A stretch of 58,925 bases of DNA from Bacteroidales bacterium (GTDB lineage Bacteria; Bacteroidota; Bacteroidia; Bacteroidales; F082). Below, piece after piece: positions 1 to 55,820 of this stretch. Position 1 is the first letter of the stretch; each line of letters begins with the position of its first letter. Under the pieces are notes generated by a model, which searched no databases, had not been told where the DNA came from, and was given only the letters and a program-made list of their open reading frames with translations. The DNA is taken from assembly GCA_017466405.1 (NCBI GenBank), contig JAFTUF010000040.1, positions 1 through 58,925 of the forward strand. The letters run 5' to 3'. A program made the position numbers and the translations under genes.

Positions 1-379
1 CAAGTTCATAAAACGTATATCTCGATGAATATAGCATTTATCGAGAGTTATTTTTAAAGAAATAAATCAAACTACAGACGTGGGAAAATGGGTTCTGCCC
101 ATTGATGTAGGAAAATTAATAATAAATAGAACCCGCCTTAATTTTTTTTAACTTTTTTCAGATTGGAAGAAAAAGGATAATATGAGATGCTGAGTTGCTG
201 ATTTGCTGAGGGGCTGATGGGCTGAGATGCTGAGTTGCTGAGGGGCTGAGATGCTGAGATGCTGAGGCGTCCACGGTAGAGACGTACCAATTACACCAAA
301 AATATTAACAATATGTAATTGATGCGTCTCAATTTAATCTGAGTTGTATATTAATTAATAAGGTGTATTTCTCGGCGAC
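1..379. other. Gene-free left edge with tandem repeat words
   Basis: I see no convincing gene here. The main content is a tandem array at about 183-267 built from variants of GCTGAGATGCTGAGTTGCTG, followed at about 268-290 by a short segment related to the gagacg/cgtctc hairpin words found elsewhere in the window. The left part (1-170) is AT-rich with no recognised signal. The ABC-F gene ends at 380, so part of this region is its 3' flank. Confidence 0.6.
183..290. repeat. Composite repeat: CTGAG tandem words plus gacg/cgtc segment
   Basis: About nine imperfect copies of a 9-10 bp word (GCTGAGATG, GCTGAGTTG, GCTGAGGG) lie in tandem and are followed by a segment carrying gcgtcc and gagacg. 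Read on the other strand the order is cgtctc segment, then CTCAGCA words. The same order recurs inside the GH97 coding sequence at about 30193-30262. Units vary in length and there are no unique spacers, so it is not a CRISPR. Confidence 0.7.
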
Positions 380-29025: not shown

Positions 29026-29366
29026 GACCGACTTATTTTAGATTTTAAAAAACGTTTTAGTAAGAATACTATCTATCTTTCTTTTAAGGAGTTGCATCAT
29101 ATTTTTCACATTTTTGGCACTGCGAAGATAGCATTTTTTCACAGAATCGGAATGATTTTAGGATAAATTTTCACAGAATCGTTTTTTTACCTTGAACTTT
29201 GAATCGCTCTCTGCTCACCCTTACAATCGTAATTATTCAGACATGGCAATTACATATTGCTAGAATCATTGGTGAGATTGACGCGTCTCTACAAATTTTC
29301 GACTTTCAATTTTCGACTTTCAACTTTAAAGTATTAATTTTGTACTCTCAAATTTCTTCCTATAAA
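29026..29366. other. Divergent intergenic region with paired repeats and GH97 promoter
   Basis: No gene was seen. It contains two direct copies of TTTTCACAGAATCG (29137-29150 and 29168-29181, 31 bp apart), a weak -7-like box for the GNAT gene (TATCTTCG, 29122-29129), a gacgcgtctc word near 29280, two tandem TTTTCGACTTTCAA words (about 29296-29325) and the GH97 promoter. Confidence 0.6.
29335..29342 (+). promoter_or_regulatory. -7 box of the GH97 gene
   Basis: TAATTTTG, 24 bp before the ATG at 29367. It supports that ATG over the longer TTG-initiated ORF from 29199. A TTCG sequence lies 19 bp upstream, inside a tandem repeat word. Confidence 0.55.
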
Positions 29367-31559
29367 ATGAAAAGAATAAAAAACAATATCATCCGAAAAC
29401 TCCAATTGTTAATTGTCAATTGTACATTGTTAATTTGCCTCTTCTCCTGCTCAACGCCGAAAAACGAAGTCGCTTCACCAGACGGGAAAATACATCTTTC
29501 TTTTAACATCGACGACGATGGTTTTATGTATTATGACGTTAAAGTCAACGACAGCGTTTTCATAACTCCTTCGTTATTAGGCTTCGAAGCAAAAAACGGT
29601 CTCAACCTCAAAAACTCTTTCGTGATAACAAAAACAAAGTTCACTTCAGAAAACGAGACATGGTCGCAAATTTGGGGCGAGAACAAAACGATACGCAACA
29701 ACTACAACGAGATGGCGGTTCATCTTGAAAACGAAGACAGTATCTTCCTCGTCATGCGATTCCGCCTCTTCAACGACGGTCTCGGCTTCCGCTACGAATA
29801 TAAAGTCACCGACATCGACAGCGTCATCATCACCGACGAATTAACATCTTTTAACATTAAAGAAAATGGAACCTCTTGGTCGATACCTGCAAGTTTCGAG
29901 ACTTACGAACTTCTTTACAGAACATTGCCTATCAATGAAGTAGAAGACGCTAACACACCATTTACCTTCAAGACAGAAAGCGGAATCTACGCCAGCATAC
30001 ACGAAGCCGCACTCACCGACTTCCCAGAGATGACTTTGAAAAAAACTGAAAAACTGAAAACTCTAGAAACTGAAAATAATTTTGACTCACAACTTCTCAG
30101 ATTCTCAGATTCTCAGATTCTCAGTTTCAAAACTCAACTAGCACCTTATCCCGATAAAAAAACTAAAGCCATCTTCACCTCAGATTCTCAAAGGACGTAT
30201 GCGATACGTCTCAGTAACTCAGCAACTCAGCATCTTAGCAACTTAGCAACTCAGATTCTAAATTTCAAAACCCCTTGGCGTACGATACAGATTTCCGACA
30301 AAGCCGTCGGCCTCATCAACTCAAATCTTATCTTAAATCTCAACGAGCCTTGTGTTTTGGAAGGCGACTTGTCGTGGATTCGTCCCATGAAATATGTTGG
30401 CGTCTGGTGGAGCATGCATCTCGGCGTTGAAAGCTGGGTAATAAACGACCGTCATGGTGCGACGACAGAAAACGCAAAACGTTATATCGACTTCGCTGCC
30501 AACAACAATATCGACGCTGTTCTTTTTGAAGGATGGAACGAAGGATGGGACAGTTGGGGCGGACGACAGAACTTCGACTTCACCAAGGCTTACGCCGACT
30601 TCGACATCGATGAAATTATGCGTTATGCCAAAGAAAGAAATATCGAAGTCATTGGACATCACGAGACTGGCGGTAATATAGCGAATTATGAGAGACAGCT
30701 GGAAGAAGCTTATCGCTGGACCGCCGGCAAAGGCATCCACTGTGTCAAGACCGGTTATGCCGGCGGTCTGCCTGACGGTCATAACCACCACGGACAATAT
30801 AACGTAAGACATTATCGTAAAGTCGTAGAGACTGCCGCGCGACATCATATCACCCTCGACGTTCACGAGCCAATCAAGCCGACGGGCATACGCCGCACCT
30901 ACCCTAACATGATGACACGCGAAGGAGCGCGCGGCATGGAATGGAACGCCTGGAGCGAAGGCAACCCTCCTGAGCATCACGTCACTCTGCCTTTCACGCG
31001 ACTGCTCGCAGGTCCGATGGACTACACGCCTGGAACCTTCGACATCTTATTTGAAAACACGCGTAACTCGCCGCAGCGTAAGAAGTGGAACGACAACGAC
31101 AAAGGCAACAGCAGGGTCAACACAACATTAGCAAAACAACTCGCCAACTGGGTTATATTATATTCGCCTTTGCAGATGGCGTCGGATATGATTGAACATT
31201 ATGAAGGACATCCCGCCTTTCAGTTTTTCCGCGACTTCAATCCCGACTGCGACTGGTCGGAGGCGTTGCAGGGCGAGCCTGGAGAATATATCGTCGTCGT
31301 GCGCCGAGCCGGAGAGGATTTCTTCTTAGGAGCGGCCACCAACGGCTCGGCGCGTGAAGTCGCTGTTCCTTTAACGTTTCTTCCAGAAAATCATGACTTC
31401 GTCGCTACGATATATTCCGATGGCGACGACGCACATTGGGAGACAAATCCTACTTCATACAAAATAGAAAAGAAAATAATCTCACACAGCGACACATTAT
31501 TTATTAATATGGCAGCCGGCGGAGGATGTGCGGTGAGTTTTAAGGTAATAACAAAGTAG
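29367..31559 (+). CDS. GH97 family lipoprotein (alpha-glucosidase-like) with repeat-derived segments
   Basis: A 730-residue lipoprotein: signal peptide with lipobox LFSC (C28), GH97 N-terminal beta-sandwich, catalytic TIM barrel (from about 305) and a C-terminal beta domain. TPWRTIQISD, NSNLILNLNEPC, HHETGG and EGARGMEW are family signatures. VKTGYAG stands where retaining members have a nucleophilic Asp (KVDF), so an inverting alpha-glucosidase resembling SusB is more likely. Three stretches are unusual: residues 13-23 of the signal peptide, about 225-254 and about 272-300 are encoded by dispersed intergenic repeat words. The last two sit in the N-terminal domain where relatives have short loops as I remember them. 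The start is set by the promoter at 29335. Confidence 0.9.
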   Translation: MKRIKNNIIRKLQLLIVNCTLLICLFSCSTPKNEVASPDGKIHLSFNIDDDGFMYYDVKVNDSVFITPSLLGFEAKNGLNLKNSFVITKTKFTSENETWSQIWGENKTIRNNYNEMAVHLENEDSIFLVMRFRLFNDGLGFRYEYKVTDIDSVIITDELTSFNIKENGTSWSIPASFETYELLYRTLPINEVEDANTPFTFKTESGIYASIHEAALTDFPEMTLKKTEKLKTLETENNFDSQLLRFSDSQILSFKTQLAPYPDKKTKAIFTSDSQRTYAIRLSNSATQHLSNLATQILNFKTPWRTIQISDKAVGLINSNLILNLNEPCVLEGDLSWIRPMKYVGVWWSMHLGVESWVINDRHGATTENAKRYIDFAANNNIDAVLFEGWNEGWDSWGGRQNFDFTKAYADFDIDEIMRYAKERNIEVIGHHETGGNIANYERQLEEAYRWTAGKGIHCVKTGYAGGLPDGHNHHGQYNVRHYRKVVETAARHHITLDVHEPIKPTGIRRTYPNMMTREGARGMEWNAWSEGNPPEHHVTLPFTRLLAGPMDYTPGTFDILFENTRNSPQRKKWNDNDKGNSRVNTTLAKQLANWVILYSPLQMASDMIEHYEGHPAFQFFRDFNPDCDWSEALQGEPGEYIVVVRRAGEDFFLGAATNGSAREVAVPLTFLPENHDFVATIYSDGDDAHWETNPTSYKIEKKIISHSDTLFINMAAGGGCAVSFKVITK
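29403..29436. repeat. AATTGTCAATTGTACATTG word inside the signal peptide
   Basis: The same word as at 46604-46644, differing by one 7-bp internal unit. Here it is coding and makes the hydrophobic core of the GH97 signal peptide (LLIVNCTLLI). Confidence 0.7.
30039..30128. repeat. CTGAAAA / CAGATTCT words inside the GH97 gene
   Basis: In-frame stretch of ACTGAAAA words followed by three tandem CAGATTCT units. The same CAGATTCT and CTGAAAA words fill the gap at 8057-8130. It encodes roughly residues 225-254, rich in Lys, Glu, Ser and Leu. Confidence 0.65.
30187..30262. repeat. Composite hairpin plus CTCAGCA array inside the GH97 gene
   Basis: GACGTATGCGATACGTC hairpin followed by tandem CTCAGCAA/CTTAGCAA words, in the same order as the intergenic element at 183-290 read on its other strand. 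It encodes roughly residues 274-298 (RTYAIRLSNSATQHLSNLAT) without breaking the frame. Confidence 0.7.
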
Positions 31560-39929: not shown

Positions 39930-40054
39930 TTATAGAAATAAGATTCGTTTTTTAATCTTATTGAACCTTTATACAAAGATTTCTATGGCGCATACGATAT
40001 GCCCCAATATTATAGTGGATATATTCTGTTGACTGTTGTCTATTGACTTTTTCT

Positions 40055-40151
40055 GGGCGTTCCGGCTATGCCGTCGGGCTTTCCGCTATATCTTTGCTCG
40101 CTCCCGTCTCCGCCTCCCGCTCTCAAAGGATGCCGCTCCAATCCCTAACGC
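40055..40151. repeat. GC-rich dispersed element, copy 1
   Basis: Starts GGGCGTTCCGGCTATGCCGT and ends at CAATCCCTAACGC. It shares both ends with 46649-46798, which has about 53 extra bases in the middle, and its 3' end with 36449-36476. Its base composition differs sharply from the AT-rich surroundings. It encodes no protein that I recognise. Confidence 0.75.
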
Positions 40152-40287
40152 ATTGGACGCTCTTATAAATATACGACAACACTTTAATTGATAATTCCGA
40201 CAGATTCTTCTCTCGCAAAGACGCAGAAAAGCGCAAAGTATGACGTTTCGACAAGCTCAACAACCAGTCAATTGTCAATGTCCATAG

Positions 40288-46644: not shown

Positions 46645-46648
46645 CATT

Positions 46649-46798
46649 GGGCGTTCCGGCTACGCCGTCGGGCTTTCCGCTATATCTTTGCTCGCTTGAT
46701 TCTCACCCGCACCCAAACCCCGCTCCCGCACCCAAATCCCTCACCCGCTCCCGTCTCCGCCTCCCGCTCCCAAAGGATGCCGCTTCAATCCCTAACGC
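46649..46798. repeat. GC-rich dispersed element, copy 2 (long form)
   Basis: Begins GGGCGTTCCGGCTACGCCGT and ends CAATCCCTAACGC. Compared with 40055-40151 it has an insertion rich in CACCCGCACCCAAA and CCCGCTCCCG units, so the middle has expanded by short tandem repeats. Confidence 0.75.
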
Positions 46799-54205: not shown

Positions 54206-54223
54206 AACTTCTTGTTTATCTAC

Positions 54224-54370
54224 TACAAAAATACATTATTTTGCAAAAATCTCATATCTAAAGCAAAAAAAGAGCGTACAAGTGAATTTTACTTATACTC
54301 TCTCTTTGATTTTCAACGGTTCACAAGTTTATAAACCATTATTTTTTCTTAATATTCATCTTCGTGGAAA
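54224..54370. repeat. 147-bp direct repeat, copy A
   Basis: About 93% identical to 55674-55820 (some ten mismatches). It contains a -7 box (TATTTTTG on the minus strand, 54226-54233) at one end and a hairpin (GAGCGTA.../...TACTCTC region) in the middle. It lies between the stop of AAA_14 gene 4 and the start of the EFR1 gene, so it acts as terminator for one and promoter for the other. Confidence 0.8.
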
Positions 54371-54375
54371 GCGAG

Positions 54376-55632
54376 CTACAGTTCTAAAGAATTGGATTTC
54401 AATAAGAAATCATAGATATTCATTATTGTGATACCGTTATTGTCCCTTGTGATTGGCATTTCTTCTCCAACCACTATAATTTTTTTAAACGAATCGTCAA
54501 CTTTTAATAATGATGATTTTTCTTGTTTAATCTTATCATCAGTCTCCATACGGTATGCAGATTGTATATAATAGCGTTTGCTTCCTGCATTACATATAAA
54601 GTCTATTTCATAATTAGAACGCTGTTGTTTTCTTTCATTATCTCTTGTCACAGCATGAATAACACCGACATCAACATTATATCCACGTATTCTTAATTCG
54701 TTATATATTAGATTTTCCATCAAATGTGTTTTCTCGAACTGCCTAAAGTTAAGACGAGCATTACGCAAACCCAAATCCATGAAATAATACTTATAGGGGG
54801 AATTGATATATTTCTTACCTTTCACATCATAACGAGCAGATTTTTCAACAAGAAAAGAATCACACAAATATTCTATGTAATCTTTTATTGTGTCATACGA
54901 TATGACAGACTTCTTTTCACTTTTAAAGGTATTCGACAATTTATTCGGATTTGTCAATGTACCGATTCCTGAAGCGACTATATCTATCAATTCTTCCAAA
55001 TCATCATCTTTTTTAATGTTGTAACGCTCCTTTATATCTTTAATATAAGTTTCCGCAAACAATGACTTTAAGAAATGTGCTTTATGCTCATCTGTTTTAT
55101 GCGATAAGATTTGAGGAAGTCCTCCGTATAACATATATTCGTTAATTCCCGACTGCATTGAACCTTGATACGCCGACATATATTCGCTAAAACTAAGAGG
55201 ATATATTCTTAGTTCGAAGCCTCTTCCTCGGAATTCCGTAATGACATCTTTTGATAAGAATCTAGCGTTACTACCTGTCACATAGACATCTACATTTTGC
55301 TTTTTCAAAAGTCCATTCAAAACATCAACAAAGTCATCAAGCATTTGCACTTCATCAAGAAAAATGTAATAAGTATCATTGTCAACTATACGATTTTCTA
55401 TATATTCATAAATATTATCAGGATTTCTTAGCGACTTGTTCTTATAATCCTCCAAATCAATCTTTATAATATGATTCGCATCAACCCCATCACTCTCCAG
55501 ATATGATGAAAAAATCTCAAACAAAAGATACGACTTACCACTTCTACGCATTCCTGTTATGACCTTTATCATACCATTTTCCTTCAACGATATCAATTCG
55601 TCCAAGTATTTCTGTCTTTCTATTCTTTTCAT
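54376..55632 (-). CDS. AAA_14/DUF4143 family ATPase, copy 4
   Basis: A 418-residue ATPase with Walker A (GMRRSGKSYLLF), Walker B (YYIFLDEVQML), a sensor segment DVYVTGSNARFLS, an HTH-like middle and a DUF4143 end (ENLIYNELRIRGY...YEIDFICN...YYIQSAYR). It resembles copy 1 more than copies 2 and 3. Direct repeats of 147 bp lie on both sides, so recombination between them would delete the gene. A 13-bp dyad GTCACACTGTGAC (55649-55661) lies in its leader. Confidence 0.86.
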   Translation of the reverse strand: MKRIERQKYLDELISLKENGMIKVITGMRRSGKSYLLFEIFSSYLESDGVDANHIIKIDLEDYKNKSLRNPDNIYEYIENRIVDNDTYYIFLDEVQMLDDFVDVLNGLLKKQNVDVYVTGSNARFLSKDVITEFRGRGFELRIYPLSFSEYMSAYQGSMQSGINEYMLYGGLPQILSHKTDEHKAHFLKSLFAETYIKDIKERYNIKKDDDLEELIDIVASGIGTLTNPNKLSNTFKSEKKSVISYDTIKDYIEYLCDSFLVEKSARYDVKGKKYINSPYKYYFMDLGLRNARLNFRQFEKTHLMENLIYNELRIRGYNVDVGVIHAVTRDNERKQQRSNYEIDFICNAGSKRYYIQSAYRMETDDKIKQEKSSLLKVDDSFKKIIVVGEEMPITRDNNGITIMNIYDFLLKSNSLEL

Positions 55633-55661: not shown

Positions 55662-55673
55662 AGTTTTTTCGAT

Positions 55674-55820
55674 TACAAAAATACATTATTTTGCAAAAAA
55701 ATCATATCTAAAGCAAAAAAAGAGCGTACAAGTAAATTCTACTCATACGCTCTCTTTGATTTTCAATGGTTTAAAAGGTTATAAACCATTATTTTTTCTT
55801 AATATTCATCTTCGTGGAAA
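55674..55820. repeat. 147-bp direct repeat, copy B
   Basis: The partner of 54224-54370. On the minus strand it has a hairpin (GAGCGTATGAGTA / TACTTGTACGCTC) followed by TTTTTTT, a good Rho-independent terminator, and then the -7 box TATTTTTG (55676-55683) of the AAA_14 gene. Confidence 0.8.
55690..55755 (-). terminator. Terminator inside repeat copy B
   Basis: The GAGCGTA...TACGCTC stem with one internal mismatch and a run of seven Ts on the minus strand. It would stop transcripts of the 55921-56946 gene before the AAA_14 promoter. Copy A holds the equivalent hairpin. Confidence 0.65.

Follow-up and report, generated by a model that had tools for sequence, protein, structure and literature searches.

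An enzyme loop made of an intergenic repeat in a gut-type bacterium, with close relatives lacking it or carrying a different repeat

Rickettsia palindromic elements (RPE) are dispersed repeats which are found between genes and also in frame in several conserved genes; they are palindromes of about 105-150 bp and encode recurrent peptides (PMC10969869, PMC2229807). Heptanucleotide simple sequence repeats, e.g. TAACTGA, are scattered in bacterial genomes, including some Bacteroidetes, and are mostly intergenic (PMC4679880). The TAACTGA type consists of one fixed word, located mostly upstream of starts (PMC4679880, citing Mrazek et al.). As for in-frame arrays of 7/8-nt words in Bacteroidales, no treatment was recognised in the accessible part of the open literature.

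We describe here a gut-type bacterium in which an enzyme loop is made of an intergenic repeat, and whose close relatives are without this repeat or have a different one in its place. The window, i.e. the whole stretch of DNA that was analyzed (58,925 nucleotides), belongs to a draft genome of metagenome type (G000; 2.43 Mb, 69 contigs, one strain).

Repeat arrays inside a GH97 gene

The enzyme belongs to the GH97 family, all three GH97 Pfam domains being above the cut-off in a Pfam search (GH97_N 35-328, Glyco_hydro_97 334-624, GH97_C 628-726). By eye, the protein starts with a signal peptide and a lipobox-like Cys. E213, E501, E519 and E525 are invariant in 35 sequences; by analogy with SusB, they would be calcium or catalytic glutamates. 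The catalytic part is under strong constraint and purifying selection, with dN/dS of about 0.07: over residues 300-725 the values are 0.077, 0.069, 0.075 and 0.069 against the congeners G077, G064, G027 and G009, respectively. Several word arrays are present in this gene, at 29404-29435, 30041-30076 and 30094-30128, besides the insert at 30187-30262. "Site A" refers to the segment after EMTL and "site B" to the segment between AIF and PW. The features of the gene and of its intergenic counterpart are as follows:

29367..31559, plus strand: GH97 gene, open frame of 730 aa
29404..29435, plus strand: period-7 word array of AATTGTT type (Tandem Repeats Finder)
30041..30076, plus strand: site A, part one, AAAAACTG octamer array (Tandem Repeats Finder, period 8)
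30094..30128, plus strand: site A, part two, TTCTCAGA octamer array coding for LLRFSDSQILSF (Tandem Repeats Finder, period 8)
30179..30188, plus strand: CTCAGATTCT, left copy of a 10-nt direct repeat
30193..30210, plus strand: 18-nt hairpin GGACGTATGCGATACGTC, an exact dispersed repeat, coding for RTYAIR
30210..30251, plus strand: CTCAGCAA octamer array coding for LSNSATQHLSNLATQ (Tandem Repeats Finder)
30250..30259, plus strand: CTCAGATTCT, right copy of the 10-nt direct repeat
183..266, minus strand: intergenic array of the CTCAGCAA octamer family
about 276..333, no strand: GTAGAGACG...CGTCTC palindromic element of roughly 58 nt, whose end adjoins the array 183-266

The array at 29404-29435 codes for QLLIVNCTLL, the hydrophobic part of the signal peptide; an AATTGTT-type array with a different number of units was flagged in the orthologue L062 too. 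The first-pass annotation had placed a repeat stretch in frame inside the gene at 30187-30262, and this was borne out: the frame 29367-31559 is open and the stretch encodes RTYAIRLSNSATQHLSNLAT. From left to right, the insert is composed of CTCAGATTCT, the hairpin GGACGTATGCGATACGTC, about five octamer units and CTCAGATTCT again. The unit itself, previously read as the 7-nt word CTCAGCA, had to be corrected to the 8-nt CTCAGCAA; Tandem Repeats Finder gives period 8 and 86% matches on 30210-30254, with units that vary. The CTCAGATTCT pair around the insert may be the remnant of an older octamer array, or a target duplication; no target-site duplication at the insert was distinguishable from array units, the 10-nt direct repeat CTCAGATTCT being equal to the unit of the older array. 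CTCAGATTCTAAATTTCAAAAC, at the right copy of CTCAGATTCT, is common to the window gene and to the relative L061, so an octamer array was probably at site B before the hairpin and the CTCAGCAA units. The older array, common to L061, would have been of CTCAGATT type, and the hairpin and CTCAGCAA units would then have entered it.

A composite of the same two parts in the same order had been proposed for 183-290. The octamer part indeed aligns, with a score of 53 against the reverse complement of 183-330, while none of 300 letter shuffles exceeded 23. The first part differs, the best local match of the hairpin GGACGTATGCGATACGTC to 183-330 being 5 nt, and as to the order only the general layout is the same (a GACG/CGTCTC palindrome, then octamers). 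Since the hairpin parts differ, the insert as a one-unit copy of the 183-290 composite is ruled out. A diverged second copy of the 276-333 element is located at 29235-29292, the two forming an inverted pair with 74% identity.

Dispersal of words and hairpin in the genome

Allowing at most one mismatch, the double word CTCAGCAACTCAGCA is found at 199 places in the 2.43-Mb genome, compared to 1 for a reversed control; exact copies number 66 and 0, respectively. Among 60 congeneric genomes (this one included) exact copies are present in G000 (66), G077 (38), G064 (3) and G009 (1), and 56 have none; among 395 genomes of the phylum (this one included) six others have one each and 388 none. The octamer word is thus nearly private to this lineage. 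The hairpin GGACGTATGCGATACGTC is present exactly in 10 of the 310 loci compared, some of which overlap. In the DNA of its own genome that was examined, it occupies 7 distinct exact places, GH97 included, in addition to 2 one-base variants. One copy lies in frame in a gene for an outer membrane efflux protein (OEP, TolC-type; L303 858-2315, plus strand), where it again reads RTYAIR. Repeat-like words are visible near the N-terminus of this OEP gene too.

Arrays were counted in 458,925 bases, made of 20 stretches of 20 kb taken by a fixed rule and of the window. Lag 7 gave 42 arrays and lag 8 gave 37, compared to none in order-1 Markov simulations of each sampled stretch. Lags 4, 5, 6, 9, 10, 11, 12 and 13 gave 0, 0, 2, 2, 1, 0, 4 and 2 arrays, and lags 14, 16, 21 and 24 are raised as multiples of 7/8: nearly all tandem arrays in this genome have a period of 7 or 8. 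We do not extend this to a strict rule for the genus, as the lag test covers this genome alone and in G077 the linker of DNA polymerase I looks, by eye, like period 6. The 76 merged array loci, which correspond to 33 consensus words, are distributed as follows: 53 are intergenic, 13 are at gene edges and 10 are inside genes. The coding share of the sample is 73% (genes were called with a purpose-made codon-score caller); genes being so strongly depleted, insertion into them is the exception. An enrichment at N-termini was dropped as resting on too few arrays (over 211 frames, the initial 80 codons hold 5 arrays, or 0.099 per kb, vs 0.040 per kb in the rest).

The palindromes were considered next to the arrays. 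The sample holds 28 elements of GTAGAGACG type, of which 7 are within 60 nt of an array, compared to 9.2% of random intergenic stretches; this association is weak, and the idea that palindromic elements and arrays belong together was not retained. A pattern of CGTCTC and CTCAGCA separated by up to 30 nt gave 21 matches vs 2 in a reversed control, a ratio that was set aside because two places have overlapping matches and four or more of the matches (L287, L290, L291, L293) resemble ordinary coding sequence. Two Y1_Tnp genes are present in the genome (L157, L158, about 1380-2220). Both are surrounded by a different palindrome-like repeat, GCGC(T/C)GTAGGCGCGACAGA and CCGTCCCTACGGGACT, so a RAYT as mover of the hairpin GGACGTATGCGATACGTC is unsupported.

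Other repeats were seen in the window. An AAA_14/DUF4143 ATPase gene (54376-55632, minus strand) is flanked by the two copies of a 156-nt direct repeat, 92% identical (54215-54370 and 55665-55820), which resemble mobile cassette ends. Another intergenic repeat, TGGGCGTTCCGGCTATGCCG... with CGCTCCCGTCTCCGCCTCCC, is present in two copies 96-98% alike (40054-40151 and 46648-46798).

We consider it very probable that dispersed repeats specific to this lineage inserted into the GH97 gene and have persisted because they are in frame, stop-free this way round and in a tolerant loop of the N-terminal domain. Insertion would have been undirected, with selection filtering frame, orientation and position. 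The earlier proposal that a spreading repeat supplies protein sequence is supported, although its picture of a single composite was too simple, the insert being one of several arrays. Local slippage of GH97's own sequence, needing no outside source, would account for arrays that are tandem and imperfect, whose copy number could shift in this way, and site B already held an octamer array (L061). It is nevertheless very unlikely as the origin of the arrays: copies of this species-limited word are scattered through the genome, and ahead of the array stands a non-tandem hairpin that is an exact dispersed 18-mer.

Loops of GH97 and of other proteins in relatives

The segment E213-W304 was compared in 82 GH97 sequences. 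It measures 92 residues here, compared to a median of 44 and a maximum of 83 in the other 81, in agreement with the short loop that had been anticipated for GH97 relatives. The next longest are L061 (83), L062 (70), L069 (64), L033 (62), L099 (60) and L132 (56). L061 is from Lentimicrobiaceae bacterium SIG106 and has the same place and score as G064; L062 is from SIG105 and has the same place and score as G027. Site B has 32 residues here and 7 (EKDNFIS) in G077 and G009, in which a net 25 residues (75 nt) are missing at the insert site. In G027 it is short, with TAASQSLTFKI. In L061/G064 it is filled with a different octamer array, of TTCTCAGA type, a word which in the window gene is located at site A. 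At site A, relatives overall have other words or a short loop: the words are of CAAAGTC and TTCAATG type in G027, and of AAAAGG and TTCAGAG type in G009. By eye, the GH97 proteins L043, L044, L045 and L053 of other congeners also have longer site A loops. A third site, after PFTFK, is filled only in G077 and G009. With a threshold of 14, lag 7/8 arrays number 7 over five close GH97 genes vs 2 over 78 distant ones, and no array at lag 5, 10 or 11 was found in either set.

The first-pass annotation had singled out, as evidence against a repeat origin, orthologues carrying the same residues in genomes free of the repeat. The opposite was found: G027, with 0 exact double words, has the short AIFTAASQSLTFKIPW, and G009, with 1, has AIFEKDNFISPW at site B. 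G077, with 38 exact double words, still has the empty-site AIFEKDNFISPW. These comparisons bear on the idea that the loop is ancestral to the GH97 subfamily and merely resembles repeats. L061 is long at site B, where it has an octamer array, and the site was long before the split from L061; yet the insert residues are present in none of the 81 relatives compared and both G077 and G009 are short, which makes an ancestral loop extremely improbable.

Dispersed repeats are present in genes other than GH97 too. Copies of the exact word group into 34 clusters in the genome, 9 of which are inside open frames that continue for 39 residues or more to either side. L015, L145 and L149 (open across the array, with the first ATG after it) and the C-terminal L143 are not counted among the nine. 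The nine genes code for a SpoU methylase, an HU-CCDC81 protein, DNA polymerase I, RecO, a DUF5686 protein, an SBP_bac_5 protein, a DrrA-type ABC ATPase, a protein without family and GH97. Eight of them have a Pfam family, and in five the array falls within a Pfam match. All nine arrays are read in their stop-free direction, a sense orientation which is partly by construction because the opposite strand has TGA. Since the genome is a draft of metagenome type in 69 contigs and repeats invite misassembly, a repeat stitched into the GH97 gene by the assembly was also considered. This is hardly credible: arrays are in frame and stop-free in nine genes, and separately assembled relatives hold other arrays at the same loops.

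In the SpoU gene, the array amounts to 18 nt in frame; neither the G009 gene, an 82% orthologue, nor any of the other 18 aligned relatives has them. The word residues of RecO are present in none of 29 aligned relatives; as the loop is just one residue longer than in most relatives, this case looks like a replacement and not an insertion. Those of DNA polymerase I are likewise in none of 29 aligned relatives, and its linker differs from species to species. In several congeners the linkers (NGERRTENGER, SPSLRGTKQSRE, VIASEAKHPEG) are what we take to resemble repeat-coded peptides. VQSSEFKVQ and QDYKTT of G009 are common to its GH97 and its DNA polymerase I. The linker of G077 (L306) has, by eye, 6-nt words of GTCAGA type, unlike the 7/8-nt words of the window genome.

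The SBP_bac_5 gene (L150 1145-3061, plus strand) has word repeats at four sites by eye. Its counterpart in G009 has other words at three loops and an ordinary signal peptide. The first loop reads QAQGPS...VE(L/P)VETP in 5 of 19 relatives (L262-L266); of the rest, L267 has a short extension, L268 is cut before the loop and the other 11 are without it. Between genes of the window, TTTCGACAAGCTCAACAACC is found at 40246-40265, and its reverse complement can read VVELVE, as in this loop of the relatives. Separately, CAACAGT-type words are in frame in a dihydroorotase-like gene (L223 4980-6339, minus strand) and in a flavin reductase-like gene (L234 8549-9149, minus strand), both named by eye. A 339-aa frame without Pfam/NCBIfam family (L152 2013-3029, plus strand) is mostly made of word repeats, including tandem EEELSNSATQQLSNS.

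The arrays could be useful in themselves, as phase-variable switches or as selected surface loops and signal peptides. The gain or loss of one 8-nt unit would shift the frame, and heptamer arrays code for signal-peptide-like stretches in GH97 and SBP_bac_5. Against this, the units are diverged and the GH97 frames are open in all five close genomes examined, and we hold such a use to be very unlikely. Under the preferred reading of entry and retention in a tolerant loop, the repeat-made loops would be about neutral.

Possible overwriting of loops across the genus and comparison with known systems

A broader proposal extends to the genus. Each species would overwrite loops with 7- or 8-nt words peculiar to it, and these words would be produced not by random slippage but by a dedicated process that measures length and may use a template. 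Conserved proteins would in this way be continually supplied with new loops, linkers and ready-made signal peptides, and after each species split the same loops would be refilled with different words. We regard this proposal as rather doubtful. The near-exclusive period of 7/8 nt across many unrelated words raises the question of how such repeats are formed, which this genus makes testable.

In closely related species, the same enzyme loop is empty, holds one repeat or holds another that is unrelated to it, which provides natural insertion experiments. Such loop sets permit measuring loop tolerance, the speed at which noncoding repeats become protein, and any recruitment. They are also a warning for annotation: in genomes of this kind, peptides like LSNSATQQ, RTYAIR and LLIVNC come from DNA repeats and are not domains.

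The locus can be placed among the known families as follows. With REP/RAYT and MITE-type elements it shares short dispersed palindromes with GACG...CGTC arms, in a genome where Y1_Tnp genes are present; however, these genes are flanked by another palindrome family and not by the hairpin GGACGTATGCGATACGTC. With long simple sequence repeats (5-11 nt) it shares tandem units far above expectation, as the counts for lags 7 and 8 (42 and 37, vs 0 in the simulations) show. It differs from the TAACTGA type by its many words, periods of both 7 and 8, varied units, and the presence of some of them in frame inside conserved genes. As with RPE, one dispersed repeat is found in frame in several unrelated conserved genes (9 of the 34 clusters, and the OEP hairpin). 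Here, however, an 18-nt hairpin and imperfect tandem 7/8-nt words take the place of a 105-150 bp palindrome, and the words that occupy the same loops differ among congeners; we do not class the insert as an RPE. The window case combines features of RPE and of heptanucleotide repeats, and adds to them the presence of different words at the same loops in sister species.
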